Assembly: GCA_013285405.1 (NCBI GenBank)
Contig: CP053446.1
Coordinates: 558,001 to 622,000 of the forward strand
Length of the DNA stretch: 64,000 bases
Source: Ignavibacteriota bacterium
GTDB taxonomy: Bacteria > Bacteroidota > Ignavibacteria > Ignavibacteriales > Ignavibacteriaceae
Direction: 5' to 3'
A program made the translations under genes and the position numbers. Below are positions 2,005 to 62,373 of the stretch, in pieces. The notes below the pieces were generated by a model, which saw nothing but the letters and a program-made list of their open reading frames with translations, ran no database searches and had not been told where the DNA came from. Each line of letters begins with the position of its first letter. Positions within the stretch are counted from its first letter, which is position 1.

Positions 2005-2082
2005 GTCATCCTGAATTTATTTCAGGATCTGATTCATTAAATATTAATTTAAATCATAAGCTGAAACAGGTTCAGCTAGACA
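2005..2082. repeat. Intergenic palindromic repeat, GTCATCCTGAA...type
   Basis: Between the divergent-facing prenyltransferase start and the Fe-S gene stop. Two hairpin-forming halves are visible: CCTGAATTTATTTCAGG near 2010-2026 and AGCTGAAACAGGTTCAGCT near 2059-2077, with roughly inverted outer ends (GTCAT on the left, AGAC on the right). A related element stands at 60874-60970. Reading through it gives the peptide HPEFISGSD, a phrase that turns up in many spurious bacterial ORFs made from such repeats, so the 81-codon plus-strand ORF here is not a gene. Confidence 0.75.
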
Positions 2083-24873: not shown

Positions 24874-26166
24874 TTATTTAAGCAAAGTCATTTTTCTGAC
24901 TTCGTTGAACATACCTGCTTCTAAACGATAGAAATAAATTCCACTGTTTAGTTGAGTTGCATCAAAATTAATTGTGTGTGAACCAGCTTCCATATTCTGA
25001 TTTACCAATGTGCTAACTTCCTGTCCGAGTGCATTGAACACTTTCAAAGATACATTTGAACTTTGTGGAATTGAGAACTTAATAGTAGTATTTGGATTAA
25101 ATGGATTCGGATAATTCTGAGAAAGCTCAAATTGTGCTGGTGAAGTAACTTCAACATTAACTTCATTTGAATAAGCAAATGATCCATTAAAGTCAATCTG
25201 CTTTAATCTGTAAGTATAACTTCCTGCAAGAAGATTTGCATCAACAAACCTGTAAGTTTTTGCTTCGGTGGTTGTTCCATAACCAGGAACAAAACCAACT
25301 GCCGCAAATTCAGTTCCTGAACTTGATCTTTGAATTTCAAAACCTGAGTTGTTTAATTCAGTTGCCGTTGACCAGTTTAGGAATACATCACCACCAACGG
25401 ATGATGCAGCAAAAGAAGTCAACTCAACAGGTACAAGATCTTCCCATTGAGTAGATAATCTGATACCGTCAATCACAACAGAGTACGATTGTCCGCCTTG
25501 TCGTAATCCGATAGCATCAATAACATCCTGACCATTTGTTGAAGTATTAGTTACTTCTGGCGTACCAGCGAGAACTTCACTTTGTGGAACTCCGGAAGTT
25601 ATTACCCAGAGTTTGCATTCATCTGCACCACCGGTATTAATTGTATATTTTACGAAGATGAGATAAGTTGTATTGTAGCTGAAATCAGTCGTACCCATTG
25701 TTTGGGTTGATGTGTTACTCATCCCAAATCTAAGATTTCCGGAAACATCCTGAACAAAAACTCGTGCAGCAAAGAGTGTAAAAACAGTTGGTGAAACTCT
25801 GTTACCGATGTGAATAAAATAATCCTGCGTCGCACTTGCAGAAGCAACATTAGCTAAAAAGGAATAATATATTACATCACCGTTATTGGCAAGTGAGTCG
25901 AAGCCTACGTTATCATCTTCCCGCGAACCAGATCCACCATTTATTGAGACCTGATTTCCTATCCCGGAAGATGGATAACCTGTATAATTTATACTAGCTG
26001 CTTCGACGAAAATTGGTGAACCGGCACCACTATGTTTAGTCCAGCCATGCCCGGTTATTGAATCACCTACAGCATAATTAAAATCTTCAACCAGCAACTG
26101 CCCGAATGAAAAACTGAATGGAAATATTAACAATACAAAAACAACAAGTAAATATGATTTTTTCAT
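24874..26166 (-). CDS. T9SS type A sorting domain protein
   Basis: A 430-residue secreted protein. Signal peptide 1-22; residues about 25-245 form a jelly-roll-like beta domain (LLVEDFNYAVGDSI, WVITSGVPQSE, VIDGIRLSTQW) of a type seen in many cargo proteins without assigned function. From 247 the stretch VPVELTSFAASSVGGDVFLNWSTATE opens the fibronectin-like linker, and YPNPFNPNTTIKFSIPQ to MTLLK is the sorting domain. Unlike its paralogues this linker contains no palindromic element, so it shows the uninterrupted state of the loop (FEIQRSSSGTEFAAVGF). A GGAGGG ribosome binding site precedes the ATG. Confidence 0.85.
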   Translation of the reverse strand: MKKSYLLVVFVLLIFPFSFSFGQLLVEDFNYAVGDSITGHGWTKHSGAGSPIFVEAASINYTGYPSSGIGNQVSINGGSGSREDDNVGFDSLANNGDVIYYSFLANVASASATQDYFIHIGNRVSPTVFTLFAARVFVQDVSGNLRFGMSNTSTQTMGTTDFSYNTTYLIFVKYTINTGGADECKLWVITSGVPQSEVLAGTPEVTNTSTNGQDVIDAIGLRQGGQSYSVVIDGIRLSTQWEDLVPVELTSFAASSVGGDVFLNWSTATELNNSGFEIQRSSSGTEFAAVGFVPGYGTTTEAKTYRFVDANLLAGSYTYRLKQIDFNGSFAYSNEVNVEVTSPAQFELSQNYPNPFNPNTTIKFSIPQSSNVSLKVFNALGQEVSTLVNQNMEAGSHTINFDATQLNSGIYFYRLEAGMFNEVRKMTLLK

Positions 26167-26305: not shown

Positions 26306-27553
26306 TTATTTGGCAAGAATCATCTTGCGCGATTGTATTATTCCATTGGTTTCAAACTTGTAGAGGTACACACCACTGTTCAAATCTGATGCGTTGAAAT
26401 TAACTGTATGAATGCCAGCTTCCAGGAAGCCATTCACAAGCTGCATAATTTGTTCACCAAGCAAGTTATAAATTGATAATCTCACATCCCCGGAATGTGT
26501 GAAATTAAATCTGATAGTAGTTGATGGATTAAAAGGATTCGGATAATTCTGTTCGAGAACAATTTCAGCCGGAATTATTCCTGCATCAACTTCAATAACT
26601 TTTGAATATTCAGACTGTCCGTCAGTATCAATTTGCTTTAAGCGATAATAAAGAGTACGAGTAAGAGTAAGATTGTCAGTAAATGTATAATCCTTTGGTG
26701 AATTTGAATTGCCATTTCCTTCAACAAAACCGATCTTCTCCCATTTGTCATTCTGAGTCCTGCTTTTTGCGGGATAAACTCCGCGAAGAATCTCAAATCC
26801 ATAATTATTAACTTCGGTTTCAGTTCGCCAGTTTAGTTTTACAGAATTTTCTAAAACGATCGCTGTGAAGGAAGAAAGTTCGACGGGGAGGTTAGTTTCA
26901 TCAATTGAAAAATCATCTATAGCCAAGCCATCATCAGCACCAGTCGCATTAAAATCTATCCATCTGATCCAAAATGTTGCTCCATTTGCAATACTCAAAC
27001 CAGTAATTGTTTGGGTAATAGTTGTCCTGTTAGCCGATGCATTCCCATCAAGCGATCCAACCGTACCTGTACTGTTCGGTGCAATAAAATCTAAGCCATC
27101 CACGTCCGTCCACGTCCCTGTAGATAAACTCGTTGCATCTAAGCTATACTGAAAATCCAATCTATCATTTCTACCTGTTGCACCTAATCTCCATTGTTCA
27201 CCTGTATAAGAAATTGGTAATTGTGTAATTGTAAAACCAGTATTATTTATAAAACTTGCTCCAATTGTAGGTATTAATGTACCTGATTGGAGTCCACCAA
27301 AAGCTCTATCGGTAGCAGATGTCGCACCAAAGCTATATGTATCTCCAGCGTTGCCAGAACCAGTTCCAGCCGTGTATATTCCATTAGCATTGGTACCGCT
27401 TTCAGAAAAAGCCCATCCTGTTGGAACTGTGGAGGAAGTACCTGTGCTTGTTAAAGTATTAAAATCTTCTGAATAAGTGTTAACTCCATCAAGTGAAACC
27501 TGGGCAATAGTTAAACTGTAAGTGAATAGTAACATTGATAAAACTTTTTTCAT
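26306..27553 (-). CDS. T9SS type A sorting domain protein
   Basis: A 415-residue secreted protein. Signal peptide 1-17; a beta-sandwich of about 210 residues follows (YSEDFNTLTSTGTSS, WRLGATGRNDRLDFQYSLD, DDGLAIDDFSI), similar to ligand-binding N-terminal domains of nucleases and adhesins, function unknown. LPVELSSFTAIVLENSVKLNWRTETE opens the linker, interrupted by GVYPAKSRTQND, which is encoded by a repeat element (26747-26794). The sorting domain runs from YPNPFNPSTTIRF to the end (MILAK). The preceding gene in the direction of transcription is the large T9SS gene at 27721. Confidence 0.85.
   Translation of the reverse strand: MKKVLSMLLFTYSLTIAQVSLDGVNTYSEDFNTLTSTGTSSTVPTGWAFSESGTNANGIYTAGTGSGNAGDTYSFGATSATDRAFGGLQSGTLIPTIGASFINNTGFTITQLPISYTGEQWRLGATGRNDRLDFQYSLDATSLSTGTWTDVDGLDFIAPNSTGTVGSLDGNASANRTTITQTITGLSIANGATFWIRWIDFNATGADDGLAIDDFSIDETNLPVELSSFTAIVLENSVKLNWRTETEVNNYGFEILRGVYPAKSRTQNDKWEKIGFVEGNGNSNSPKDYTFTDNLTLTRTLYYRLKQIDTDGQSEYSKVIEVDAGIIPAEIVLEQNYPNPFNPSTTIRFNFTHSGDVRLSIYNLLGEQIMQLVNGFLEAGIHTVNFNASDLNSGVYLYKFETNGIIQSRKMILAK
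26747..26794 (-). repeat. In-frame repeat element inside a T9SS gene (composite)
   Basis: On plus, GTCATTCTGAG and CGAAGAATCTC, the two ends of a GTCATTCTGAGCGAAGCGAAGAATCTC element, surround an extra TCCTGCTTTTTGCGGGATAA piece. It encodes YPAKSRTQND in the linker of the host gene and keeps the frame. Confidence 0.6.
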
Positions 27554-27720: not shown

Positions 27721-30639
27721 TTATTTCAAAAGGAGCATTTTTCTAGTCTCAAATTTTTGTTCCGTTCTAAAAGTATAGAAGTAAATTCCACTCGAATAGT
27801 TCTCCGCATTAAATACTGCTTCATAAATCTTCCCACCATCTGCAATTCCAGTAAATATCGTCTCCACTTCATTCCCTAATAAATCAATTACTTTTAGCTC
27901 TGCTTTTTGTGTTTCTGCGACAGCAAATTTAATAGTGGTAATTGGATTGAACGGATTGGGATAATTCTGCTCAAGCACAAATCCATTTGGAATATTTCCT
28001 GCATCAACTTCAATTACTTTTGAATATTCAAACTGCCCGTCAGTATCAATCTGTTTTAGCCGATATGCATAACTGCCATACTTTATCACTTCATCCATAT
28101 AGGAATATTCTTTAGGTGAGTTACTGTTTCCACTTCCTTCAACAAACCCAATCTTTATCCACACGGTGTCATACTTTGCGGAGCGAAGAATCTCGAAACC
28201 ATAATTATTAACTTCGGTTTCTGTTTGCCATTTTAATTGAATGTCTCCACTCTTCAAAACTTTTGCGGTGAAGGATGTGAGTTCGACGGGGAGAGGATTA
28301 TCAATATTTAATTCATATACTCCTCTACCGTGAGTTGCTGCTCTAAGGTATCTAGTACCACCATTACTGTAAAAGCTAAAATCAAGTACAGGTACAAATG
28401 GCATTCCATTGCTTAATTTTATCCAGTTTGTACCTCCATTGGTTGTCCAGTAAACGCCAAAATCATTTCCAGCATATAAATGGTTAGTATTTGCAGGGTC
28501 TATAAATAAATCACTAACAGGAACTGACGGCAAGTTACCACTGACATTGGTCCAGTTTGTACCAAAGTTGGTCGTTTTAATAACCTGCCCACCAATGTAT
28601 GATGCTCTTGTCATGTAAAATATATTAGCGTTCACTGGATCGGCAATTACTCGTTGGATATTAGTCCCAGTAAATCCGGCAGCAGTTACATTCGATGTTA
28701 TGTCTGTCCATGTTACACCTTCATCAGATGATCGGTGTATGGCTGGTGCGATAGTATAGTCACTAGATACCGCAATCATATTATTAGTTGATATCGGTGA
28801 TTGAGCAACTGAGGTAACATGGTAACCACTTATTAAACCTGAAATCATTGACCAGGTTCCTGATGCGCCTGAAGAATTTGATCGCCGAATTTGGCCATTG
28901 ATCGCAGCAAAAATACGAGTAGAAATGGTAGGATGTTGCCAATATGGAGCCAACCAAGCTGCGCTCCCAACATAATCAACGTTTTGCCAACTTACACCAG
29001 CATTGGTGCTCCTTAATAAGTTTCCATACTGAGTACTCATAAAAATAAAATTCGAGTTGCTATAATCAACAAAACACTCCATACCATCACCGCTTGTTTC
29101 AAAAATCCAATCACTTGCACCTTTATTTGCAGTGCTGAAATTTCCGTTATCCTGTGCCCCTCCAAATAGTATAGAAGAATTAGTTGGATGAGATGCTACT
29201 CTGTAAAATTGTATTGTATTAATATTGTTATTAACGTTGAACCAGGTTGCACCAGCATCAGTAGATTTAAAAATACCGCCATCACATCCCAGGTAAACTA
29301 TATTACCATTCGACGGAGCAAATTGTATTTTATGTATATCAACGTGAGAATAACAATCCCAAGCCGTTGTACCTCCCTGAAAACCGGATGGATTCCGAAC
29401 GAATGAAATATTTGAACCATTAGTTGTTCTGCTAAGTTCTACATTACCAAAACAAGCAACATTAGCATTTGTTGGATGAACAGATAGACATAGGTCGTAT
29501 GATCCCTGGTCATTAACTGATGATCCATCATAGCTACCTGAAATATTAACTCCTGAGGAAATCTGAGACCAATTTACTCCTCCATTTGTGGATTTGAATG
29601 CTGCTGTAGTCCGTCCACCGGGTAAAGCAGAATCGTTATAAATAAGCAAATATATGATTAGAGGTGAGGAAGCAGATAATTCAAATTGCATTCTACCAAT
29701 CGAAGTTGCTGAAGGAAGACCTGTATTACTTTGAATCCAGTTTACTCCACCATCAGTAGAACGATAAAACCCACTCGAAGAAGATTGATCTCCACAGGCA
29801 GCATAAGCTAACAGGCTACTTGATGGATGAAAAGCAACATCAAAAGCATCTTGAACATTTAAAGTTCTTGTCCAGGTAGTACCTGCATCAGAACTTCTCC
29901 AAACACCCTCATTATTTGGAAAAGCATTATTCCAATTACCTGACCCAAGTGATGCCAAAATAACATTTGAATTGCCTGGATTTACTTCAATATCTGAGAA
30001 TTGAGTTTGAGTTCCGAATCCATTTGTAATATGAGTCCAATTATCTCCACCATCTATTGTTTTGTAAAGTCCATTTCCTTCGTATGTAACATTATTATAA
30101 AACCATATAGCTTCACCGGTACCGGCATAAACTACATTAGGATTATTAGGGTCGATTGCAATACCACCAAAAGTTAATCTGCTTAAACTACCACTTTTAT
30201 CCAACCAGGTTGTGCCACCATTACTAGTTTTCCAAATTCCTCCCGCAGCAGCACCAAGATATGCAGTGTTTGGATCTGTTGGATGAACATCAAGTCCGCG
30301 TACTCTTCCGCTTACTTTTCCCCAATAAGGAACAAAGCTTGACGTCATGTCAATTGCATTCGGACCTAGATTCGTCCATAAATCTGAGGTGCCACTTATT
30401 TTATTAAGTTCCAAATTATTTTCTGCAATTTTTTGTTCTTCAATTGCTATCTGGTGATCAACATGTTCTTTTGGGAATATACCGTTTTCATCAGTTCTTG
30501 GACGATAAAACCATTCGTATCTCTTAAATGATTTTTTCTCTCTTATTTTCTCCGGCACTTGGTCCCAAACAGATTTATATTGACCATAAGTAGATGTTAA
30601 TAATAGTAGAATTAGAAATGGTATTATTATTTTCATCAT
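27721..30639 (-). CDS. Large T9SS cargo with BNR/Asp-box beta-propeller
   Basis: A 972-residue secreted protein. Signal peptide 1-19 is followed by a short charged segment and then a sortilin/sialidase-like propeller from about residue 85 to 770 with many Asp-box turns (S-x-D-x-G-x-x-W: SSDAGTTWTR, STDGGVNWIQ, STDAGATWFN, SSDEGVTWTD) alternating with PTNPN.VYLG-type strands. The linker LPVELTSFTAKVLKSGDIQLKW has the degraded element peptide SAKYDTVW (28168-28194), and YPNPFNPITTIKFAV begins the sorting domain. Such proteins are thought to be extracellular adhesins or glycan binders; no catalytic residue can be named. Confidence 0.85.
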   Translation of the reverse strand: MMKIIIPFLILLLLTSTYGQYKSVWDQVPEKIREKKSFKRYEWFYRPRTDENGIFPKEHVDHQIAIEEQKIAENNLELNKISGTSDLWTNLGPNAIDMTSSFVPYWGKVSGRVRGLDVHPTDPNTAYLGAAAGGIWKTSNGGTTWLDKSGSLSRLTFGGIAIDPNNPNVVYAGTGEAIWFYNNVTYEGNGLYKTIDGGDNWTHITNGFGTQTQFSDIEVNPGNSNVILASLGSGNWNNAFPNNEGVWRSSDAGTTWTRTLNVQDAFDVAFHPSSSLLAYAACGDQSSSSGFYRSTDGGVNWIQSNTGLPSATSIGRMQFELSASSPLIIYLLIYNDSALPGGRTTAAFKSTNGGVNWSQISSGVNISGSYDGSSVNDQGSYDLCLSVHPTNANVACFGNVELSRTTNGSNISFVRNPSGFQGGTTAWDCYSHVDIHKIQFAPSNGNIVYLGCDGGIFKSTDAGATWFNVNNNINTIQFYRVASHPTNSSILFGGAQDNGNFSTANKGASDWIFETSGDGMECFVDYSNSNFIFMSTQYGNLLRSTNAGVSWQNVDYVGSAAWLAPYWQHPTISTRIFAAINGQIRRSNSSGASGTWSMISGLISGYHVTSVAQSPISTNNMIAVSSDYTIAPAIHRSSDEGVTWTDITSNVTAAGFTGTNIQRVIADPVNANIFYMTRASYIGGQVIKTTNFGTNWTNVSGNLPSVPVSDLFIDPANTNHLYAGNDFGVYWTTNGGTNWIKLSNGMPFVPVLDFSFYSNGGTRYLRAATHGRGVYELNIDNPLPVELTSFTAKVLKSGDIQLKWQTETEVNNYGFEILRSAKYDTVWIKIGFVEGSGNSNSPKEYSYMDEVIKYGSYAYRLKQIDTDGQFEYSKVIEVDAGNIPNGFVLEQNYPNPFNPITTIKFAVAETQKAELKVIDLLGNEVETIFTGIADGGKIYEAVFNAENYSSGIYFYTFRTEQKFETRKMLLLK
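28168..28194 (-). repeat. Degenerate in-frame repeat element inside a T9SS gene
   Basis: GTCATACTTTGCGGAGCGAAGAATCTC on plus is a diverged form of GTCATTCTGAGCGAAGCGAAGAATCTC (53721-53747), placed at the same codon position of the linker. Confidence 0.5.
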
Positions 30640-48211: not shown

Positions 48212-50665
48212 CTATTTAAGCATCAACATCTTCTTTGTTTCTGTAAATTGTCCTGCCCTCAATTGATAAAAATAAATTCCAGTTGCCATATCAGGACTGT
48301 CCCGCAAAGCGGGATGACCTACCGAAAACTCAACTTCATAAATTCCAACCTGCTTTTCTTCATTGACTAGTGTTGCAACTTCATTCCCCAAAACATCATA
48401 AACCTTCAATGTCACCAGCATATTGTCATTCCGGGCTTGACCCGGAATCTCAAATCGTATTACCGTGTTCGGATTAAACGGATTAGGGTAGTTCTGAAAT
48501 AACACAAACTTTTTCGGAGTAAAATCAACTTCCACTTCTATTTCATTTGAGCCTGCCTGTCCGATAGGCAGGTATTCAAAACTTCCATCAAAATCAATTT
48601 GCTTGAGTCTGTATTTGTAAATTCCGGTTGTAATTTTCTCATCAATGAAAGAATATGATTTTGGTTCAGTAGTAGTTCCAAATCCCGGGACAAAGCCAAT
48701 TGTCTCCCATTCTGCCTCCTGACTTCTAACTTCTAACTTCTTGCGATTAATCTCAAACCCCGAGTTATTCGTTTCCGTTGCGGTTGTCCAATTTAATTCT
48801 AATTTGCTTTCAAGAAACTCTGCAGTGAATGAAATCAGTTCAACTGGAATACCCCCATTAATTGAATAAAGAATTAATTCATAACTACCTGCTATCCAAA
48901 GTTCATCTGTTTCGCAATGTGCAATTGATTTTAATCCATTGTAGAAATCAACTTCATTTAAACTCCAATTATTACCACCATTCGTGCTATACCAAATATC
49001 TCCTCCTGAACCGACTGCCCAGCCATAATTTGTATTTTTGAAGAAAATGTCATTGAAATTATAACTCTGACTTTGAATTTGAAGTTGTTCAGTCCAATTA
49101 GTTCCTCCATCTGTAGTTTTAAAAATGCTAGCTGCACCACCACTCGCGCCATCAGCTAACCACCCAATCGACTCATTTAAAAAGTAAACAGAATTAAAAA
49201 ATTGTACACCAGGAACAGTTAAAGGTTGCCAACTTAAACCTCCATCTGTGGTTTTAATGATAGTACTATAAGAACCAGCGGCCCAACCATAATTTTCATC
49301 CAGGAAAAAAATTGTATGGAGCCAACCAGTAGTTCCAGTATTAAGCTGAAACCAATTTTGACCTCCGTTTATAGTCTTTAACATTATGCCAGTATTTCCT
49401 GCAACCCAACCTGTGTCAGCATTGATAAAATAAATTGATCTAAGTGGGATTGATACACCACTATTTTGCAGTGTCCAATTATTTCCACCATCACTTGAAT
49501 GATATATAACACCATAATGACCAGAAGTCCATGCGTTTTGTGAATCAGGGAAAGTTACTGAATAAAGATGCCAGGAAGATGGGATGTAAGCTGATAACTC
49601 CCAATTTTGTCCGCCATTTGTTGTGTGAATTATTTTACCACCTAGACTCACAGCTATTCCACAATATCGATTTGCAAAATCAACAGAGTTAAGATGATAA
49701 TGATCTCCATCAGATATTCTTATCCAATCCTGCCCGGCATTTGTAGTTTTTAAAATTGATCCAGCTCCTCCAACTGTCCAACCATAATTTTGTCCTATAA
49801 GAGAAATCGAAGCAACATCCGCATCTTGTAGAACATTACTCCAACTGGTACCAGCATTTGTAGTTTTTAAAATATCTACACCAACAGTATAACCAGTCTG
49901 AGAATCGACAAATTTAATATCATAATAACGCTTTCCCGTAAAATTATTATTCCAAGTAATACCGCTGTTTGTTGTTTTCCAAATATACCCCTCATCCCCT
50001 GATATCAAGCCGTCTGTACCAGCTGCGAATCCAATTGACGAATTTGTGAAAAAGATTGTCTGAAGATCTGGAATGTTTGATTGGGGATACCCTTCCCAAT
50101 ATAGTCCACCATTAGTGGTTCTCAAAATAATAGTAGGGTTAACAAATAGATCACTTGCAATTGCCCAACCTGTTTGCTCACTTAAGAAAAATAATGAACG
50201 TATGTCATAATCTGAATTCCAAAATTGTTGAGACCAGTTTAATCCGCCGTCCGTAGTTTTATAAATGCTTTCGTAACCAGCTACCCATCCAATAGTACTA
50301 TTTATAAAAAACATGTCCCAGTAGGAACCGTCTTCTAAATCAGAAATAATAAACCAAGAATCTCCTGTGTCAGTTGTTTTCAAAATTTTACCATAAAAAT
50401 CCAATATCCAACCTGTATTTTCGTTGATAAATTCGACGTCTTTTAAATAAGAAAAATATCCAACATCCTTTCTGACCCAAGTATTACCCGAATCTGTAGT
50501 CTTTAAAACAATTGATTCATCACCCACAGCAAATCCAGTTGTTTCATTAACAAACTTTACGGATACCAACCCATTACCTGGAGGAATAGGATGTTGCCAT
50601 TCCCACTGTGCAGATATAGTAATCGAAAAAATAAAAACCAGTAGAGATATTTTAACGCTACGCAT
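48212..50665 (-). CDS. T9SS cargo with 13 YCF48/Asp-box repeats
   Basis: An 817-residue secreted protein. Signal peptide 1-19, then WEWQHPIPPG and about 13 repeats of the form (K/R)TT(D/N)GG..W alternating with FF.N...GWA.G strands to about residue 615, making one or two seven-bladed propellers of the Ycf48/BNR type. Residues 620-720 are the fibronectin-like linker and the last 90 the sorting domain. Four repeat-derived peptides interrupt this C-terminal part: KLEVRSQEAE, LPIGQAG, IPGQARND and VGHPALRDSP. The final insertion replaces the usual DASSLASG turn, so folding or sorting may be altered. First of three cargo genes with near-identical C-terminal cassettes. Confidence 0.85.
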   Translation of the reverse strand: MRSVKISLLVFIFSITISAQWEWQHPIPPGNGLVSVKFVNETTGFAVGDESIVLKTTDSGNTWVRKDVGYFSYLKDVEFINENTGWILDFYGKILKTTDTGDSWFIISDLEDGSYWDMFFINSTIGWVAGYESIYKTTDGGLNWSQQFWNSDYDIRSLFFLSEQTGWAIASDLFVNPTIILRTTNGGLYWEGYPQSNIPDLQTIFFTNSSIGFAAGTDGLISGDEGYIWKTTNSGITWNNNFTGKRYYDIKFVDSQTGYTVGVDILKTTNAGTSWSNVLQDADVASISLIGQNYGWTVGGAGSILKTTNAGQDWIRISDGDHYHLNSVDFANRYCGIAVSLGGKIIHTTNGGQNWELSAYIPSSWHLYSVTFPDSQNAWTSGHYGVIYHSSDGGNNWTLQNSGVSIPLRSIYFINADTGWVAGNTGIMLKTINGGQNWFQLNTGTTGWLHTIFFLDENYGWAAGSYSTIIKTTDGGLSWQPLTVPGVQFFNSVYFLNESIGWLADGASGGAASIFKTTDGGTNWTEQLQIQSQSYNFNDIFFKNTNYGWAVGSGGDIWYSTNGGNNWSLNEVDFYNGLKSIAHCETDELWIAGSYELILYSINGGIPVELISFTAEFLESKLELNWTTATETNNSGFEINRKKLEVRSQEAEWETIGFVPGFGTTTEPKSYSFIDEKITTGIYKYRLKQIDFDGSFEYLPIGQAGSNEIEVEVDFTPKKFVLFQNYPNPFNPNTVIRFEIPGQARNDNMLVTLKVYDVLGNEVATLVNEEKQVGIYEVEFSVGHPALRDSPDMATGIYFYQLRAGQFTETKKMLMLK
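48294..48319 (-). repeat. In-frame palindromic element encoding GHPALRDSP
   Basis: GGACTGTCCCGCAAAGCGGG on plus; TCCCGC and GCGGGA arms around AAA (48300-48314). It lies inside the sorting domain of the host gene, where paralogues have DASSLASG. Confidence 0.7.
48425..48451 (-). repeat. In-frame palindromic element encoding IPGQARND (copy 1)
   Basis: ATTCCGGG, CTTGA, CCCGGAAT (48428-48448): eight-base perfect arms. Copies at 50889-50915 and 53430-53456 are identical. Confidence 0.8.
48552..48572 (-). repeat. In-frame palindromic element encoding LPIGQAG (copy 1)
   Basis: CCTGCCT, GTCCGAT, AGGCAGG: seven-base perfect arms. Adds exactly 21 bases compared with the uninterrupted GSFAYSNEV in the gene at 24874. 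Confidence 0.8.
48719..48744 (-). repeat. In-frame element encoding KLEVRSQE (copy 1)
   Basis: CTGACTTCTAACTTCTAACTTC on plus, a CTTCTAA tandem; a variant is at 51181-51208 in the next gene. Confidence 0.55.
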
Positions 50666-50699
50666 AATTTTACCTCATATAAAATTAAACTTATAATTC

Positions 50700-53222
50700 T
50701 TACCTAAGCAAAATCATTTTCTTCGTTTGAACAAAACCACCTGCTTGCAGTTTGTATAAATACATTCCCGACGCAAGTGATGAAGCATCAAACTCAACTT
50801 CATAAACTCCGGCTTGTTTCTCTTCGTTAACTAGTGTTGCAACTTCATTCCCAAGAATATCATAAATTTTTAGTGTCACTAGTACATTGTCATTCCGGGC
50901 TTGACCCGGAATCTCAAATCGTATTACCGTGTTCGGATTAAACGGATTAGGGTAGTTCTGATATAACACAAATTCCTTTGGAGTAAAATCAACTTCCACT
51001 TCTATTTCATTTGAGCCTGCCTGTCCGATAGGCAGGTATTCAAAACTTCCATCAAAATCTATTTGCTTGAGTCTGTATTTGTAAATTCCGTTTGTAACAT
51101 TTTCATCAATGAATGAATAAGACTTTGGTTCAGTCGTAGTTCCAAATCCAGGTACAAATCCTATCATTTCCCATTCTAACTCCTGACTTCTAGCTTCTAA
51201 CTTCTTGCGATTAATCTCAAACCCTGAGTTATTCGTTTCCGTTGCGGTTGACCAGTCAAGTGTAACATTATTGTCAAGTGACGTTGCGTTGAAAGAAATC
51301 AATTCAGCTGGCATTTCCATATTAAAATCAATCATCATTTTTAATCCGATAAATACATATGGATTCGGAACCACAAAACTTCCGGAGTCAGCAATGGGGA
51401 CATTAATTACAACACCTCCTGCTAAATCTAATAATACTCCTGACATCTCTTCAGGCAATATCCAGCTTATTTCGATAAAGTTATTTAGATCAGGCTGATA
51501 TGCAATTCTGTATTCAATAGTTTCTGAAATAAAGATATTTCCAAATCGATAATCTTTATAAGAACTAAGGGTTCCCGCAAAATTATTTTCCGGAAGAATT
51601 AATTTAGATTCAAATGCACCTGGTGGCGGGAAGGGAGGCAAATCTGCTTCGCCAAGATGTTGGTCAATCCCGTCTGTTGCAGTCGGATCAATACCAAATA
51701 AATGGGTCCGATACTGGCTTCCACTATAAACAATGATCGTTCCTTCTGACAATGGATCAGCAAGTTGATTCGTTACATATAATTCAGCAGGTGAACCTGA
51801 TGCGTTGTGAAAAAATTCAATCGTCCCGGTTTGAACTCCCGGAGAATTATTTAATGTTACGTAAAATATTTTTATCGTGCCAGGAGAAATATATATTGGT
51901 AAAGAATTTGGTGTAACTGTATAATTGTTATTTGATGAAACTATCCCGTTGATGATTAACGAATCTGAAGTTCCCAGATTTTTTATTATTACTTGTTTAG
52001 TCATCGGGTGCGAACTAAAATATAAACCCAGCGGATCCATATGAAACTGAGCATAATTGTAAACCGATGAGACGTTCAGAAACGCAGGGGATCCGGGTGC
52101 ATTATGAATTATTTCAATTATACCTTGCTGTAATGTATCGGCAGAAGTGTAAGTAACATAGAACTGCTGCTGTGAAAGAGGTTCAATTGCAATCGGAAAT
52201 GAATTTGGGTAAACACTAAAATAGTTGTTATTGGATGAGATATAATTAATATAAAGTGTGTTTTCTCCTCCTGCATTAAAAATAGTAAAAGGCAGACTAT
52301 TTGCTACTCCAATAGTATCTTGTATAAATAGCAATGAAGTTGTGGACATTGAAAAAAATGGTCCTGGTGGAATTCCAGCAGGAGCGGAAACAGTCAGGGA
52401 GGCAGGTGATCCACAGCCATTGTGTGTAAACTGAATTGTGCCTTCTTCAGCAATTACATCTGACGTATTTGTGATAAGGAAAACCTGTGAATCCTGTGGG
52501 GCAAGGTAAATCGGAAGTGAATTTGGAGCGATTGTAAAATGGCTGTTTGAGGAGACGATATTTGTTATACTTAAAGTATCTTCCAAGCCTATATTAGTTA
52601 CTGTAACTGGTAGAGTAGTATCATTTCCAACTATCATCTGAGGAAAAATTAAATTCTGAGTAGAAATACCAAAGATAGGATCACTAGGAAAACCGCCTAT
52701 ACAATTATATTGCATTTTTATTATTGCTTTCGTACCGAAAGCAGTATAGCTTCCCGGTATTGTTGCAACTCCTTGCCCGGTAAGCGGACCCAGATTTAAT
52801 AGTGTACCCGTTATATTGTCAACAATCCTCATAATGGCACCTGGGGGAATATTATAAGTAATATTTAAAGGTTGACCCGGTGTTGCGACTTGCCACCATA
52901 AAGTATGTTGAATCATTCCAGTAAACGGATATGCTGGTGGATTTCCCGGAGCTCTGTAATCTTTCATAGATGATATGTATGGACATCCATAGGGAGCCAA
53001 ATCAAAACAAGCAAACAAACACCCGCAAGGCGGAATAGGGGGGAGATCAGACTCTCCAAGTTGTGGGTCAATACAATTTGTTGCAGTTAAATCCAATCCA
53101 ATCGCAAGTGGTATGTTATCTGTACCATCTGAAACTATTAATGGAATATCTACATCCACCTGTCCACTAATTCTTACTATTAATAGTATTGTAAAAGAAA
53201 AAGTGATAAATATTTTTTTCAT
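50700..53222 (-). CDS. T9SS cargo with choice-of-anchor repeats and LPPxPP modules
   Basis: An 840-residue secreted protein with a GGAGGG ribosome binding site. After the signal peptide (1-20) comes a GLDLTATNCIDPQLGESDLPPIPP module (about 44-67), then three or four repeats of about 100 residues with NSLPIYL.P...F.I.N and GTIQFTHNG.GSPASL phrases (HYDIN/ASH-type, choice-of-anchor D), then a second module (GIDPTATDGIDQHLGEADLPPFPP), the linker and the sorting domain. The C-terminal 220 residues carry KLEARSQELE, LPIGQAG and IPGQARND insertions and nearly match the genes on either side. A Cys-rich patch near residues 65-80 (CGCLFACF..YGC) is unusual. Confidence 0.85.
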   Translation of the reverse strand: MKKIFITFSFTILLIVRISGQVDVDIPLIVSDGTDNIPLAIGLDLTATNCIDPQLGESDLPPIPPCGCLFACFDLAPYGCPYISSMKDYRAPGNPPAYPFTGMIQHTLWWQVATPGQPLNITYNIPPGAIMRIVDNITGTLLNLGPLTGQGVATIPGSYTAFGTKAIIKMQYNCIGGFPSDPIFGISTQNLIFPQMIVGNDTTLPVTVTNIGLEDTLSITNIVSSNSHFTIAPNSLPIYLAPQDSQVFLITNTSDVIAEEGTIQFTHNGCGSPASLTVSAPAGIPPGPFFSMSTTSLLFIQDTIGVANSLPFTIFNAGGENTLYINYISSNNNYFSVYPNSFPIAIEPLSQQQFYVTYTSADTLQQGIIEIIHNAPGSPAFLNVSSVYNYAQFHMDPLGLYFSSHPMTKQVIIKNLGTSDSLIINGIVSSNNNYTVTPNSLPIYISPGTIKIFYVTLNNSPGVQTGTIEFFHNASGSPAELYVTNQLADPLSEGTIIVYSGSQYRTHLFGIDPTATDGIDQHLGEADLPPFPPPGAFESKLILPENNFAGTLSSYKDYRFGNIFISETIEYRIAYQPDLNNFIEISWILPEEMSGVLLDLAGGVVINVPIADSGSFVVPNPYVFIGLKMMIDFNMEMPAELISFNATSLDNNVTLDWSTATETNNSGFEINRKKLEARSQELEWEMIGFVPGFGTTTEPKSYSFIDENVTNGIYKYRLKQIDFDGSFEYLPIGQAGSNEIEVEVDFTPKEFVLYQNYPNPFNPNTVIRFEIPGQARNDNVLVTLKIYDILGNEVATLVNEEKQAGVYEVEFDASSLASGMYLYKLQAGGFVQTKKMILLR
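50889..50915 (-). repeat. In-frame palindromic element encoding IPGQARND (copy 2)
   Basis: Same sequence as copy 1, arms at 50892-50899 and 50905-50912. Confidence 0.8.
51016..51036 (-). repeat. In-frame palindromic element encoding LPIGQAG (copy 2)
   Basis: CCTGCCT and AGGCAGG arms, identical to the copies at 48552 and 53557. Confidence 0.8.
51181..51208 (-). repeat. In-frame element encoding KLEARSQE (copy 2)
   Basis: CTGACTTCTAGCTTCTAACTTC on plus, one base different from the copy at 48719-48744. Confidence 0.55.
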
Positions 53223-53240
53223 TTTTCCCTCCTGATTAAA

Positions 53241-54653
53241 TTACTTTGTCAAAATCATTTTCTTTGTCTGAATGAATGAACCCGCCTGAAGTTTATACAA
53301 ATACATTCCCGACGCAAGTGATGATGCATCAAACTCAACTTCATAAACTCCAGACTGCTTTTCTTCGTTAACAAGTGTTACGATTTCATTCCCAAGAATA
53401 TCATAAATTTTTAGTGTCACTAGTACATTGTCATTCCGGGCTTGACCCGGAATCTCAAATCGTATTACCGTGTTCGGATTAAAAGGATTAGGGTAGTTCT
53501 GAAATAACACAAATTCCTTTGGAGTAAAATCAACTTCCACTTCTATTTCGTTTGAGCCTGCCTGTCCGATAGGCAGGTATTCAAAAATTCCATCAAAATC
53601 AATTTGCTTGAGGTGGTATTTGTAAGTTCCAGTTGTTACATTTTCATCAGTGAATGAATAAGCCTTTGGTTCAGTAGTAGTTCCAAATCCCGGGACAAAA
53701 CCAATCGCTTCCCACTCGTTGTCATTCTGAGCGAAGCGAAGAATCTCAAAACCAGAGTTGTTCGTTTCCGTTGCGGTTGTCCAATTAAGCTGAACTTTCG
53801 TATTGACAAAAGAATAATTGAATGATATCAATTCGATTGGATTATATTCATTATAATGGATTATTAAATTGAGTTTGCTGAATACAAGTGGGTTAACAAC
53901 AACATAACTTCCGGAATCTGCAATTGCAACATTTATAAAGGATCCGTTAATTATGTCACGTAAAAAACCTGTCACTCCTGGTGGCAAAAACCAAAATATT
54001 TCTATACCATAACTATTATATGGCTGGTAGGAGAATTTGTAATCTACTTGACCACTAAATAAATTATTCCCATATCTGTAATCTTTCACTGTGTTATATT
54101 CCCAAAAATAATTTTCAGGGAGAATAAATCTTGCATCAATACCACCTGCTGGAGGTAATGGCGGAATCTCAAATTCTTCAAGTATTTCATCCAAACCATC
54201 GGTTGCAATTGTGTCTAAGCCAAATGATAACGGCAGAGTAACCGGACCACTTTTAATCTCAAGCATTCCTTCAGTCAGCGGTGTTAAAGGCTGATTCGAA
54301 ACGAACATCGAAATGGGTGAACCAGAGAAATTATGAAAAAACTCGATATTTCCTAATTGGAATCCTGATGCATAATTAAAAGTTATATCAAACCACTTTT
54401 CTGATAATGGTAAAACGATAATGGGAAAATTGGTCGGTGATACATAATAGTTGCTATTTGAAGAGATTATGTTACTGATAACCAATGTATCTGTTGAACT
54501 ATGATTTAATATTTTGGCAGGTTTAGTATAAAATGTTCCGGTAAATTGTAACGACGAGGGGTGAATAAAAATTTGTGAACTATCCGCAATTGGCATTGCC
54601 CCGAGTTTTGCAATTATAAATATAACTGATAGATTAAATAATAATTTTTTCAT
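53241..54653 (-). CDS. T9SS cargo with LPPxPP module
   Basis: A secreted protein of 470 residues from the ATG at 54653, which has GGAGGG directly upstream; the four extra codons of the longer frame lie in that ribosome binding site. Signal peptide 1-20; one HYDIN/ASH-like repeat (about 25-130); the module FGLDTIATDGLDEILEEFEIPPLPP; a beta domain that closely parallels the C-terminal half of the protein at 50700; then the linker and the sorting domain. The linker has RFAQNDNEW from a third repeat family (53721-53747), where neighbours have KLE(V/A)RSQE. LPIGQAG and IPGQARND are also present. Confidence 0.85.
   Translation of the reverse strand: MKKLLFNLSVIFIIAKLGAMPIADSSQIFIHPSSLQFTGTFYTKPAKILNHSSTDTLVISNIISSNSNYYVSPTNFPIIVLPLSEKWFDITFNYASGFQLGNIEFFHNFSGSPISMFVSNQPLTPLTEGMLEIKSGPVTLPLSFGLDTIATDGLDEILEEFEIPPLPPAGGIDARFILPENYFWEYNTVKDYRYGNNLFSGQVDYKFSYQPYNSYGIEIFWFLPPGVTGFLRDIINGSFINVAIADSGSYVVVNPLVFSKLNLIIHYNEYNPIELISFNYSFVNTKVQLNWTTATETNNSGFEILRFAQNDNEWEAIGFVPGFGTTTEPKAYSFTDENVTTGTYKYHLKQIDFDGIFEYLPIGQAGSNEIEVEVDFTPKEFVLFQNYPNPFNPNTVIRFEIPGQARNDNVLVTLKIYDILGNEIVTLVNEEKQSGVYEVEFDASSLASGMYLYKLQAGSFIQTKKMILTK
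53430..53456 (-). repeat. In-frame palindromic element encoding IPGQARND (copy 3)
   Basis: Identical to the other two copies. Confidence 0.8.
53557..53577 (-). repeat. In-frame palindromic element encoding LPIGQAG (copy 3)
   Basis: Identical 21-base core CCTGCCT-GTCCGAT-AGGCAGG. Confidence 0.8.
53721..53747 (-). repeat. In-frame element encoding RFAQND
   Basis: GTCATTCTGAGCGAAGCGAAGAATCTC on plus, a common dispersed bacterial repeat, in the same linker loop that holds other elements in the paralogues. Confidence 0.65.
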
Positions 54654-55072
54654 TTTTCCCTCCAAATAAAAAATCTTGTAGTTAACCGAAGAGCCCTGTT
54701 GGGTGTTGTGGTTTTTTTTCTCCCTAGGAAGTTGTAGTCTAAGCGAAGTATAGGAAGAAATTCAGAAACAATTTTTATTCTCATTCATCGGATCATTTTT
54801 ATTCACCGGAAACATCGATCAGAACTTTTCCTTTTTTATTACCTTAAATTTAATCTATTAAAATTGAGAAGCAAGTTGTCATTTTGCTAAGTTTACTTGT
54901 CAACTACGAAGTATTAGTATTCCATAATTGAATTTTTACAGACATTTTAATTAAAAAGCATAGTTGCTTATCACATTGTACTTAGGCTTTAATTGTGCTT
55001 TAACATTATATACTACTCATAAAAAAGGCGATCCGAAGACCGCCTGAACTTGAACCGGTTAGTCGCTTAAAA
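54654..55072. other. Intergenic region between T9SS genes
   Basis: About 420 AT-rich bases. It must contain the promoter for the genes to its left and holds the terminator at 55021-55045 of the gene to its right. I see no ORF, RNA or repeat otherwise. Confidence 0.5.
55021..55045 (-). terminator. Terminator-like hairpin after the T9SS gene at 55073
   Basis: AGGCG (55026-55030) and CGCCT (55041-55045), followed by TTTTTTATG on minus. Confidence 0.65.
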
Positions 55073-59337: not shown

Positions 59338-60789
59338 TTATTTTATACTCATAAAGAACTGATTTACTTCATCAGCATTTGAAAAAGATTTCCCAACTAA
59401 TGCTTCATAAAAAGGTTTTTCTTTAATAAACATTTTTTGAGTAACAAAATCTTTTATAAATCTACACTTAGATAATGAATCAAAAGGAACTAAATAAAGG
59501 TAACCACTGGCTATGTCACCAAAACAAACTTTTGGATTTTTACTAAAGTTATCTGAGCTGGTATCTCTTAAACTATTAAATGGCGAACTAACTATATCGA
59601 AGCCAACTTTGTCAAATACAGATTTGCTAATAATATTTTCGATATAGTTACTGATTTTTTGTGAATAAAATTTTTCGTGTAAATATATTTGAAATATTTT
59701 ACCCTTAAATTTCTTGTGTAAAATAAATGACATTCTTCCTTTTTCGGAAAAGGGTTGTTTAAAATTAAGATAAGAATGTGATGCTCCAACCCAAACAATT
59801 CCTTTTTTCCCTTTCTTAATAATTTGATCTTCAATTTGTTTTGCCATTAGTTCATCACGATATTGCAGAAGAGGCATAGTCTGTATTGTTTGCAATATCC
59901 TCAGCTTCTCATAGAACGGACCAGACCTTTTATCCTCAGAGTTGAGAACTAAACTTATTGAAGGCATTTCACACTTGCTATCAAGTCCTATAACTTTCAT
60001 CTTTTCCTGATTTACATCTAAACTTCTATTCAATGACCATACTCCTTCAAGAATATCCCAATATTCTTTCCAGCCCCAAATCAACCAGGGTTGATGTCTG
60101 CCTATTTCCAATGCAAGTTCATAGTCATATTGTTTTGAAGTGACCAGTTTTTCAATTAGCTCATTGTCATCGTAAAGACAAACTTCCATTGCGATAATTC
60201 TGACACCGGCTTTATAGAGATCTGGAATCATTCCTTTTAATAAATTTAAGTAGTTGCTTCGTTCGTGTACTTCACCAAAAACTATAACCTGATATTCAGA
60301 AACTTTTTCCAAAATATAATCTTCAGGTGTATTACCATTTTGATTAAGCCAGTTCAAAAATCTTGTCTCATCCGATGAATCTATTGAAGATATTTCAATA
60401 AGTTTGCTACTATCTGTTTCAGTGTAATCAGGCTCAGACAGAGAATATGAAGAATATCCATTCGATACATCATAAATATCTTTGAAGTAAATTATTCTTT
60501 TTATTATGAATAACGTTATTAATATTATCAATGCAAAAGCAATGTGGCTTTTATACTTCCCGAATAATAGGAGCACCCATCTCCCAAAGGTTTTAATTTT
60601 GAGTAAATGTGATAACAAAAAATAAAGTGTGGCAAGAACAAGAAAGGTTAATTCAAAAGGAATATAAATGTTGATACTTTGGGTTAGATAGACTATTACT
60701 TTAGTGAAAAAATATATAAGCAGCAGATTTACAATTAGAATAGAAAACCTGATCCAAATTTTTATTTTGGTTTCTTTGTCATTCATCAA
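59338..60789 (-). CDS. Membrane protein with ChaN/EreA-like domain
   Basis: A 483-residue protein with three N-terminal membrane segments (about 10-35, 38-62, 78-100) and a soluble C-terminal domain from about residue 150. The phrases VIVFGEVHERSNYLNLL, IIAMEVCLYDDN and IVWVGASHSYL repeat the GE.H...E...G..H pattern of the ChaN/TIKI/erythromycin-esterase-like superfamily, whose members bind haem or act as hydrolases or metalloproteases. This is a distant match read by eye, so function is uncertain. It has its own terminator. Confidence 0.55.
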   Translation of the reverse strand: MMNDKETKIKIWIRFSILIVNLLLIYFFTKVIVYLTQSINIYIPFELTFLVLATLYFLLSHLLKIKTFGRWVLLLFGKYKSHIAFALIILITLFIIKRIIYFKDIYDVSNGYSSYSLSEPDYTETDSSKLIEISSIDSSDETRFLNWLNQNGNTPEDYILEKVSEYQVIVFGEVHERSNYLNLLKGMIPDLYKAGVRIIAMEVCLYDDNELIEKLVTSKQYDYELALEIGRHQPWLIWGWKEYWDILEGVWSLNRSLDVNQEKMKVIGLDSKCEMPSISLVLNSEDKRSGPFYEKLRILQTIQTMPLLQYRDELMAKQIEDQIIKKGKKGIVWVGASHSYLNFKQPFSEKGRMSFILHKKFKGKIFQIYLHEKFYSQKISNYIENIISKSVFDKVGFDIVSSPFNSLRDTSSDNFSKNPKVCFGDIASGYLYLVPFDSLSKCRFIKDFVTQKMFIKEKPFYEALVGKSFSNADEVNQFFMSIK

Positions 60790-60873
60790 AATACCATTAT
60801 TTAATGACCTAAAACGACTAACAGTTAATCTTCTCCTGTCCGTCTACCCAGGCTGTTGCACGAGTCTCTTTTT

Positions 60874-60970
60874 GTCAACCTGAACTCGTTTCAGGTTCTT
60901 CTTATTCACCAAAAACGCGATTAAAGATTCTTAAACAAGCCTGACTGCCGTCGGGCAGGTTCAGGATGAC
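60874..60970. repeat. Intergenic palindromic repeat with a nested second element
   Basis: GTCAACCTGAA at the left and TTCAGGATGAC at the right form inverted ends of the same family as 2005-2082. Inside lies GCCTGACTGCCGTCGGGCAGGT (60939-60960), which is a member of the CCTGCC...GGCAGG family also found in frame in T9SS genes. One element has thus been inserted in another. Confidence 0.75.
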
Positions 60971-60977
60971 TATTAAT

Positions 60978-62270
60978 TTATTCTTCTGAATCTTCTTTCG
61001 CACGATTTAAAATTGCAGGCGGAAGCGACTTGGAAGTTTTGGCTCCAAGTTCTTTTATTTTTTCTGCACGACTAATCAAATTTCCTCGTCCATCGGTTAA
61101 TTTATTCATCGCTTTATCGTAATTATCTTTAACTGAAATTAATCCTTTACCGACTGTAAGCAAGTCTTCAACAAATGCTGTAAACTTATCGAGCATATCT
61201 CCACTTTGCCTTGCAATTTCCAAAGCATTTTTGTTTTGGTTTTCTTGTCTCCAAATGCTTGAAATGGTTCTTAGCGTTGCAAGTAGAGTTGAAGGACTCA
61301 CAATCACAATATTCATTTCAAAAGCATCGTTAAAAATTGCCTGATCATTTTGTACTGCGAGTGCAAATGCCGGTTCGATCGGCATAAACATTAGAACAAA
61401 ATCAAGACTTTCGAGCTGATATAGATTCTGATAATTTTTTCCGCTTAGATTTTTTATGTGTGATCGGATTGAATTTATATGCTCTCTCAAACCAAGCTGT
61501 TTCTGGTGTTCATCTTCTTCTGAAATATATTTTTCATAACCAATCAATGAAACTTTTGAATCCACAACTATACTTTTATTCTCAGGAAGTTTTATTATCA
61601 CATCCGGTTGTAATCTTTTTCCTGATTCTGAAGTCAAACTTTCCTGGACAACGTATTCCCTCCCTTTCACCAATCCGGATTTTTCGAGAATGCTTTCGAG
61701 AATAAACTCACCCCAATTGCCTTGAGTTTTGCTTTGTCCTTTTAATGCTTCAGTAAGATTTTTCGCTTCCTGAGTTATCTGCTGATTCATATCTTTCAAT
61801 GATGTCAACTGCTGACGAAGCGACGCAAATCTGTCAATATTTTCTTTGTTTGTTTCCTCGACTTTACTCTGAAATTCGTTAATCTTTTCTTTTAACGGAT
61901 TGAGAATTTCCGAAAGATTTGTTTTGCTTTGCTTTGAAAACTCATCTGTTTTTTCTTTGAAGATTTTATTAGCAAGATTTTCAAATTCTTTTGTGAACTT
62001 CTGCTGCAATTCCTCTACTTCTGCTTTTTGTTCAGTGAGTTTTTGTTGAAGATTATTGTAATCAGATTGAAGTGCTGATAATTTTGAGTTGAGCTCAAGA
62101 ACTTTTTGTCTCTCTGAGTTAAGATTATTTTCAAGTGTGGATCTTTCACGTTCGAGAATTACACTTCGTTCTTCAACCCTGCCGGATTCACCTTTAAATT
62201 TTGATGAAGCGATAAACCAGGCAGCAAGTCCTCCAACAATTAATCCAATTATTAAAAAAATTATTTCCAT
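60978..62270 (-). CDS. rmuC: DNA recombination protein RmuC
   Basis: RmuC limits recombination at inverted repeats and is predicted to be a nuclease. From the ATG at 62270 (AAGGAT nine bases upstream) the 430-residue protein has an N-terminal membrane anchor (EIIFLIIGLIVGGLAAWFIA), a long coiled coil (about 30-165) and the RmuC domain with QGNWGEFILESILEKSGL, LQPDVIIKLPENKSIVVDSKVSL and LDFVLMFMPIEPAF. The 27 extra residues of the longer frame are made of the inverted repeat at 62292-62373 and are rejected. Confidence 0.92.
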   Translation of the reverse strand: MEIIFLIIGLIVGGLAAWFIASSKFKGESGRVEERSVILERERSTLENNLNSERQKVLELNSKLSALQSDYNNLQQKLTEQKAEVEELQQKFTKEFENLANKIFKEKTDEFSKQSKTNLSEILNPLKEKINEFQSKVEETNKENIDRFASLRQQLTSLKDMNQQITQEAKNLTEALKGQSKTQGNWGEFILESILEKSGLVKGREYVVQESLTSESGKRLQPDVIIKLPENKSIVVDSKVSLIGYEKYISEEDEHQKQLGLREHINSIRSHIKNLSGKNYQNLYQLESLDFVLMFMPIEPAFALAVQNDQAIFNDAFEMNIVIVSPSTLLATLRTISSIWRQENQNKNALEIARQSGDMLDKFTAFVEDLLTVGKGLISVKDNYDKAMNKLTDGRGNLISRAEKIKELGAKTSKSLPPAILNRAKEDSEE

Positions 62271-62291: not shown

Positions 62292-62373
62292 AATAGAACG
62301 CAGATGACGCAGATATAACTGATTTGCGCTGATCAGAGATAATCTGCTCAATCAGCGTAATCTGCGTTCTATT
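62292..62373. repeat. Inverted repeat AATAGAACGCAGAT...ATCTGCGTTCTATT
   Basis: Fourteen-base perfect outer arms (62292-62305, 62360-62373) plus an inner pair around GCGCTGAT / ATCAGCG. It lies between the hutH stop and the rmuC start. Such CGCAGAT repeats are frequent dispersed elements in bacteria. Confidence 0.75.

Follow-up and report, generated by a model that had tools for sequence, protein, structure and literature searches.

A very small palindromic element nested in a REP-like hairpin pair and present in protein genes

How does one short repeat come to lie inside another? In the window (the whole stretch of 64,000 nucleotides analysed here, from a genome that is a single contig of 3.86 Mb), a 97-bp element at positions 60874-60970, hereafter the outer element, holds a second palindrome in one of its arms. 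A first-pass annotation had described there an element of the CTGCC-GTC-GGGCAG type within GTCAACCTGAA...TTCAGGATGAC, and this nesting was found as described, with CTGCCGTCGGGCAG at 60945-60958. The locus thus raises the question of whether the inner piece moves on its own, and, if so, how.

The outer element and its insert

The outer element is made of two facing REP-like hairpins with their tags outward, in the order GTCA-hairpin-TCT...AGA-hairpin-TGAC, and its two ends are able to pair with each other as well. At the focal site it reads GTCA, the hairpin ACCTGAA-CTCGT-TTCAGGT and TCT, followed further on by AAAGAT-TCTTAA-ACAAG, a 20-nt insert and TTCAGGATGAC; the 5' arm of the right hairpin (TCTTAA) is decayed. 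Folded as single-stranded DNA, the focal element surpasses 199 of 200 shuffled versions (z = -3.17). Elsewhere in the genome, typical copies of the outer hairpin read TGTC-ATTCCGAA-CTTGT-TTCGGAAT-CT, with stems that vary on both arms from copy to copy (ATTCCGAA/TTCGGAAT, TCCTGAA/TTCAGGA, TGCTGAA/TTCAGCA, ACCTGAA/TTCAGGT). The CGTC class of REPs is marked by a CGTC, TGTC or CCTC tag beside a stem of 8-9 bp with a loop of 4-5 nt, and the typical copies agree with this; the focal left arm has a TGTC tag and a 7-bp stem, and the focal right arm reads AGTC. A CCA-like tail is absent from the outer element, and the copies read have a CT or TCT tail. To judge from its sequence, the outer element thus fits a pair of REP hairpins of a known kind, resembling the CGTC/TGTC class, because the TGTC tag, the stem and the loop agree, the CCA-like tail being the misfit. 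A search of Rfam with 60600-61300 returned nothing at E values up to 1.

Larger repeats were seen around some copies. In the flanks of L005 and L009 and in L002 and L003 (L and G numbers are our handles for loci and genomes), the outer hairpin pair lies within MITE-like repeats with ends like GAGGCTGTCTCA...TGAGACAGCCTC, and another version of the enclosing repeat has ends resembling GTTGCACGA or TCGTGCAAC. Separately, the window contains at 62292-62373 an 82-bp inverted repeat with zero spacer and arms 78% complementary (AATAGAACGCAGATGACGCAG...).

The inner piece belongs to a GC-rich palindromic family, CCTGCCT-N7-AGGCAGG, 20-21 nt long and mostly 21, hereafter named INN. A single inner motif per 64 kb is unremarkable: the expectation is 0.31 when one mismatch is tolerated, and at least one was present in 26 of 100 shuffles. 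Over the whole genome, a loose inner pattern gave 266 matches, against 8 for the reversed control (both strands, overlapping matches included), and the 21-nt INN, one mismatch allowed, gave 70 against 0 (per strand). Among 44 distinct copies in the stretches of genome examined, 43 were 21 nt long and one 20 nt, the search pattern allowing 20-22 nt. By its letters, the focal inner copy is a decayed, diverged 20-nt member of this family and no fresh insertion. Coordinates are summarized in Table 1.

Table 1. Features of the window, with the basis on which each was placed.
Feature	Position	Strand	Basis
Outer element: REP-like hairpin pair, face to face, with outward tags	60874..60970	.	sequence, DNA fold
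Left hairpin, without inner insertion	60878..60896	+	sequence; by-eye comparison with L002, L003, L005, L009
Right hairpin; ACAAG loop (60935-60939) followed by the inner element and then the 3' stem arm	60929..60967	+	sequence; empty and filled versions
Inner element, diverged 20-nt INN copy CCTGACTGCCGTCGGGCAGG	60940..60959	+	sequence; between ...AAACAAG and TTCAGGATGAC
Left flank common to other outer-element copies	60851..60873	+	comparison of copies; part of a longer repeat whose right end is not visible at the focal site
Empty outer-hairpin copy AGATCCTGAAATAAATTCAGGATGAC	2005..2030	-	hairpin scan of window
INN copy as LPIGQAG in open frame 48215-50674	48552..48572	-	frame reading, BLAST
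INN copy as LPIGQAG in open frame 50703-53240	51016..51036	-	frame reading, BLAST
INN copy as LPIGQAG in open frame 53244-54761	53557..53577	-	frame reading, BLAST
Paralogous segment without insertion (FAY-SNEVNVEV)	25087..25239	-	BLAST
Paralogous segment without insertion (SEY-SKVIEVD)	26519..26647	-	BLAST
Paralogous segment without insertion (FEY-SKVIEVD)	27937..28092	-	BLAST

Empty and filled sites

We looked for copies of the outer element lacking the inner one, as the annotation had suggested, and found them; some copies carry the inner element in the other arm instead. The outer elements therefore do not share one centre, and the window itself holds an empty hairpin at 2005-2030. When 0-26 nt were allowed between the loop and the 3' arm, 12 hairpins had 0 nt and 5 had exactly 21 nt at the same junction; overlapping regex matches were counted once, the focal copy was missed owing to its decayed 5' arm, and the stretches scanned had been picked in part for similarity to the element, so that 12:5 is not a genome-wide rate. 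Of three copies of one and the same outer unit, that of the window has INN in its right arm, that of L002 has it in its left arm, and that of L003 is empty.

Could the two palindromes nevertheless form one composite element, whose inner part belongs to the outer repeat and has no movement of its own? Some filled copies probably did multiply together, as L005, L008 and L009 all have INN in the left arm, and L014 and L015 are near-identical. However, the 12 empty hairpins of the same genome refute a composite, and INN lies also in unrelated genes with empty orthologs and within other hairpins in other phyla, which leaves this explanation hardly credible.

The genes give the second line of evidence. 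The annotation had recognised the inner family in coding sequence as LPIGQAG, and it was indeed found so in three minus-strand frames of the window. These neighbouring paralogs have INN at the same codon (FEY-LPIGQAG-SNEIEVEV, versus FEY-SKVIEV when empty), and three more paralogous segments of the window are empty (Table 1). In general, an INN copy leaves the reading frame of its gene intact and lengthens the protein by seven residues, most often LPxxQAG and often LPxGQAG. Stop-to-stop frames of at least 199 aa contain 21 of the 44 copies, 17 in the LPxxQAG frame (three being the window paralogs) and 3 and 1 in the other two frames; among the 21, the copy at L289 2088 may be situated 5' of its start codon. 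The count was repeated on INN-bearing genomes of many phyla, keeping only stop-to-stop frames of at least 250 aa and loci below 52% GC: 45 of 122 copies fell in such frames, 28 of them in the LPxxQAG frame. Compared with solved homologs, SufC of a Peregrinibacterium and RadA (L188) show a gap of exactly 7 residues and AroA a gap of 6+1, while the gaps of GlyRS and MetRS are 6 and 5, not 7.

Orthologs from five species of the same genus were empty in 20 of 20 comparisons at 8 genes of this genome, the gap being 21 nt at one point. The genes are PurL, UvrA, RlmB, PBP1C, TIGR02757/DUF2400, an M28 peptidase, a pullulanase-like protein and a UvrD/PcrA-type helicase, some of these assignments scoring below the full-length cut-offs of the models, a shortfall probably due in part to frames truncated where the loci end. 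An earlier naming of L026 as endonuclease III-like was rejected, the family model matched being TIGR02757/DUF2400. Twelve gene segments had been designed and 9 were used (L323, L308 and L020 were left out); a DNA methylase (L321) is not among the 8 genes, no listed same-genus match covering its site well. The purL gap corresponds to a palindrome of 20 nt and an additional A; the copy in rlmB departs from the INN pattern by two changes.

Two of these genes showed further features. In rlmB (L288, about 3877-3897), INN is followed further on by a CTCTCCTTCGGAGAGG palindrome read as SFGEGLG, and the matched parts of the orthologs are 11 residues shorter, 7 of which are INN. In uvrA, the INN site of this genome (G000) is not that of G018, a genome of the same family, whose own uvrA (L294 3640-3690) has INN within INN near the gene start. 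The uvrA of G002 (L370) has no INN at the G000 site, yet its matched part is as long as the query, suggesting that another small insertion may be nearby.

INN also enters itself. Of 307 copies, 7 had flanks that, once joined, restored another INN copy with at most 2 mismatches (shuffles gave 0.86 on average and 4 at most), and 5 of the 7 restored the outer copy without mismatch, against 0 in shuffles. One viral-labelled contig accounts for four of the 7; the remaining three come from G018, which is a relative, and from a Bacteroidia MAG.

The annotation had also supposed that the inner family moves by itself. This is borne out because hairpins are either empty or filled by exactly 21 nt, the orthologs and three paralogous segments of the window are empty, and some copies are nested in others. 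INN is thus, with high confidence, a family of very small, palindromic, non-autonomous mobile elements, inserted precisely into REP-type hairpins, into its own copies and into protein genes. The relative order of insertion, to which the annotation had pointed, follows from the same evidence: outer first and inner later. We read the outer element as an older REP dimer into which INN inserted. To our knowledge, the 21-nt palindrome is among the smallest mobile elements.

Footprint, distribution and the search for an enzyme

The footprint at the target, which the annotation had proposed to derive, was obtained from 229 INN copies, retained out of 252 after dropping those whose core lacked CGG/CCG or that shared 10-nt flanks; an earlier run on 139 copies gave the same picture. 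A or G stands at -1 in 80% of the copies and C or T at +1 in 80%, with weaker preferences farther out (C, A, T and G at -4, -3, +3 and +4, respectively) and none at -2 or +2. Equal flanks of 2 to 6 nt were not in excess among the 229 copies, and a target-site duplication of that length was rejected. At the 8 filled gene sites we found neither a target duplication of at least 2 nt nor a net loss of target, and INN shows no target-site duplication of the MITE/DDE type. The same base lies on both sides of 58 copies (38 expected, shuffle maximum 52), and a one-base duplication may exist at some sites. This excess, like the additional A in purL, weighs against a clean absence of duplication. Equal flanks of 7 nt were found 5 times for 0.05 expected, by eye in 7-bp tandem arrays; at L112, L156, L196 and L197, INN lies between units of 7-bp tandem repeats. 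Positions -1 and +1 are complementary in 60 copies for 81 expected, indicating that the INN hairpin ends at CC...GG, with no outward extension. No GTAG-like tag adjoins INN (GTAG or GTGG at the hairpin foot, 229 copies).

A clear flanking hairpin is present at a minority of sites. Inverted repeats of at least 7 bp flank 18 of the 229 copies (shuffles 1.7, maximum 4), most insertions having none. Among these 18 insertions, 11 are exactly at a loop/stem edge, where about 21% would be expected if positions were random. Several of these hairpins are of the ACAAG-loop type, as at the focal element, and different hairpins are used in contigs of an Obscuribacterium, of Nitrospirae and of Magasanikbacteria. 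We consider it very probable that INN, at about 21 nt, is mobile and inserts with no target duplication of at least 2 nt.

A second 20-nt palindrome family, the CTCC family (CTCCGAAGGAGTCCTTTGGA), was observed in the same kind of hairpin in this genome (L002, L003, L005, L009, L013, L287), in L013 on the opposite side of the loop. It has 10 forward and 9 reverse matches in the genome, against 0 for the control, and matches in 16 of 41 relatives.

What chemistry could insert such an element? Since no longer duplication is left, the element is a bare hairpin and targets lie at hairpin edges, the pattern suggests that single strands are cut and joined, as IS200/IS605 and RAYT enzymes do. We infer that INN is a REP/RPE-like mini-element moved in trans by an activity on single-stranded DNA. 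An endonuclease/ligase of this type would recognise the INN hairpin and ligate it into a single-stranded target; where replication exposes hairpins, insertions would fall at their loop edges, and gene copies would persist where a loop of seven residues is tolerated. The enzyme would most likely be of the HUH/Y1 class (IS200/IS605 or RAYT-like), which we consider about evenly balanced, the larger share of this going to a resident cognate RAYT.

An explanation without transposase is spread by accidents of replication or repair, such as template switching between hairpins or hairpin capture at a stalled fork. Insertions at loop/stem edges and in tandem arrays are consistent with it, as are the failure to find a dedicated gene and an element that is no more than a hairpin. 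Against it, the near-fixed length and fixed end sequence across phyla may suggest a specific factor, within search patterns that themselves fix ends and length. We regard such accidents as unlikely.

We then have to consider where INN occurs. With one mismatch allowed, it was matched in 26 of 41 relatives, with 0 to 88 matches within one family; of 395 phylum genomes, 41 had an exact match. Both counts take in genomes with one to three matches, low counts being near the level of the reversed control, which matched in 11 of the 41 and 7 of the 395. In five of the 41 matching phylum genomes (G106, G240, G341, G356, G408) the cores are unlike the family, and at least these five look like chance. 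G234 alone has 44 reversed-control matches, probably from an unrelated repeat family. In a species-genome collection, a stricter 21-mer was found, among the matches listed, in Bacteroidetes, Ignavibacteria, many Patescibacteria, Omnitrophota, Nitrospirae, Elusimicrobia, Dehalococcoidia and Thermodesulfobacteriota. Thirty-six genomes of many phyla, selected as INN-bearing, had 1-34 copies each and 0 control matches. To go by these matches, the distribution is patchy, with near-identical copies in many unrelated phyla.

Such a distribution might also come from sequence convergence, or from a sequencing or assembly artefact (an adapter-like oligonucleotide, contamination of MAGs). Many matches do come from MAGs, and the single copy of one Nitrosopumilus MAG looks mis-binned. 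However, the source genome is a single contig, assemblies of named strains hold INN too (Arenibacter 28 copies, Pleomorphovibrio 7, Salegentibacter 5), and there are diverged copies, in-frame copies and paralogs sharing INN; an artefact is thus very improbable.

Is the mobilising enzyme encoded by a resident gene? INN would then be a REP or REPIN mobilised by a RAYT, its cognate transposase being among the resident Y1 genes. IS200/IS605-type enzymes bind hairpins of 20-25 nt, according to the parts of the source consulted (PMC6006769). Y1 genes are common where INN is found: 36 of 41 relatives have them, versus 5 of 14 control genomes, as do 29 of 37 INN-bearing genomes. Counts of the two are weakly correlated, in relatives with a rank correlation of 0.42 (p = 0.007, uncorrected for relatedness) and in 36 INN-bearing genomes of 0.34 (p = 0.045), or 0.24 per megabase, which is not significant (p = 0.15). 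The INN-rich G000 (L289), G002 (L300) and G018 (L296) each have a Y1 protein of the DH[AV]H...YILNNP type. The Y1 gene of L292 in G018 has INN on both sides, by eye within the hairpins of that locus, and INN is near two more Y1 loci, L294 (G018) and L261 (G002); by eye, the copies near these three genes are mostly inside other hairpins or a neighbouring gene.

Several results speak against a resident RAYT. Beyond the absence of a GTAG tag, none of the 4 Y1 genes of this genome has INN (at most 1 mismatch) within 500 bp; one copy with two mismatches is 444 bp from a Y1 match and sits in rlmB. Some INN-rich genomes have no Y1 match (8 of the 37 INN-bearing genomes lack one, and G423 has 29 INN copies for zero Y1 matches). 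The DHAH/WQ/YILNNP type of RAYT present in this genome was found in 5 of the 395 phylum genomes (E < 1e-40), only 2 of them with INN, and no link of presence or absence with INN was seen across the 395; G002 and G018, which are outside that sample, hold a similar protein. Y1 profiles matched at 2 of 117 INN loci from the species-genome collection, one of them 145 bp from INN. Recurrent neighbours of INN at 159 loci gave, among the 14 largest clusters, 11 from viral contigs and 3 bacterial ones (4-5 loci each, ordinary genes by eye). The flanks of Y1 loci designate no cognate RAYT clearly, the few INN copies near Y1 genes being mostly inside other hairpins or genes. We found no clear tie between INN and any transposase gene, and a resident cognate RAYT is a tentative reading, somewhat less doubtful than accidental spread.

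Other palindromes were seen around Y1 genes. Hairpins such as GATCCTC-TACGAGGATC, with variation in both stem arms and in some cases an INN insertion, surround the Y1 proteins of L292 and L261, whose YIxNQxxHH motif is also that of Y1 subclass 1.2 in the sections of PMC6006769 seen. Copies of the CTCC family flank a Y1 gene on both sides in this genome (L287 2787, 4194) and in G017 (L271 130, 1688); one of these copies has four mismatches and one is itself inside a REP hairpin. The CTCC family is possibly linked to that Y1 type.

A bolder proposal is that the 21-nt palindrome, without a dedicated transposase, crosses phyla, enters hairpin loops by a general single-stranded DNA activity, and decorates conserved proteins, including those of Patescibacteria, with the same seven residues; we offer it as a speculation that may well prove wrong. 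Whatever moves INN, clean empty and filled sites are now available for a REP-like element and give its footprint: 21 nt, no duplication of at least 2 nt, and more insertions at loop edges than expected. The spread of REPs and of protein-coding palindromes can thereby be tested directly. For annotation, caution is advised: seven-residue inserts of the LPxGQAG type in conserved proteins can be mobile DNA rather than function.

Comparison with known systems

No published description of LPVGRQAG, of spelling variants of the peptide or of the 21-mer was found in a search that left subscription journals largely outside and whose broader part covered titles and the opening lines of abstracts. The inner element is REP/RPE-like and a new variety of this kind: it is far shorter than the RPEs of 105-146 bp, it carries no tag, no transposase is clearly linked to it, and its copies in many phyla are almost the same.

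Both partners of the nest can be set beside known repeats. In the parts consulted of the description of CGTC REPs (PMC3733652, Di Nocera et al. 2013), the tag may be TGTC, the stem has 8-9 bp and the loop 4-5 nt, most but not all members fit a CCA tail, and the class is reported in Bacteroidetes and Chlorobi, also inside ORFs. Typical copies of the outer element share with it the TGTC tag, an 8-bp stem starting with AT, a 5-nt loop and paired units, and differ by a CT-rich tail instead of CCA. Those parts of PMC3733652 contain no description of 20-21 nt palindromes inserted into CGTC REPs.

INN resembles the GTAG REPs and REPINs, as far as the portions seen of PMC3733652 and PMC6006769 describe them, in being a short palindrome with many copies, patchy and sometimes in frame within genes; published REPs also occur in uvrA and uvrD-type genes (PMC3733652, same portions). 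Unlike them, it has no GTAG tag and no clear RAYT linkage, is near-identical in many phyla and enters the hairpins of other families. Some insertion sequences use REPs as targets (Tobes and Pareja 2006, PMC1525189, seen in part), and INN shares with them the insertion of mobile DNA into REPs; it differs in being about 21 nt long and noncoding, and in entering genes as well.

The Rickettsia palindromic elements, in what was seen of PMC2229807, are likewise palindromes in frame in conserved protein genes, and in-frame insertion in conserved genes with empty orthologs is what we found for INN (8 genes, 20 of 20). RPEs measure 105-146 bp (PMC2229807), a length that INN, with 20-21 nt and many phyla, does not reach; RPE-4 and RPE-6 are short and, from the sections available of PMC3733652, equal CGTC repeats.
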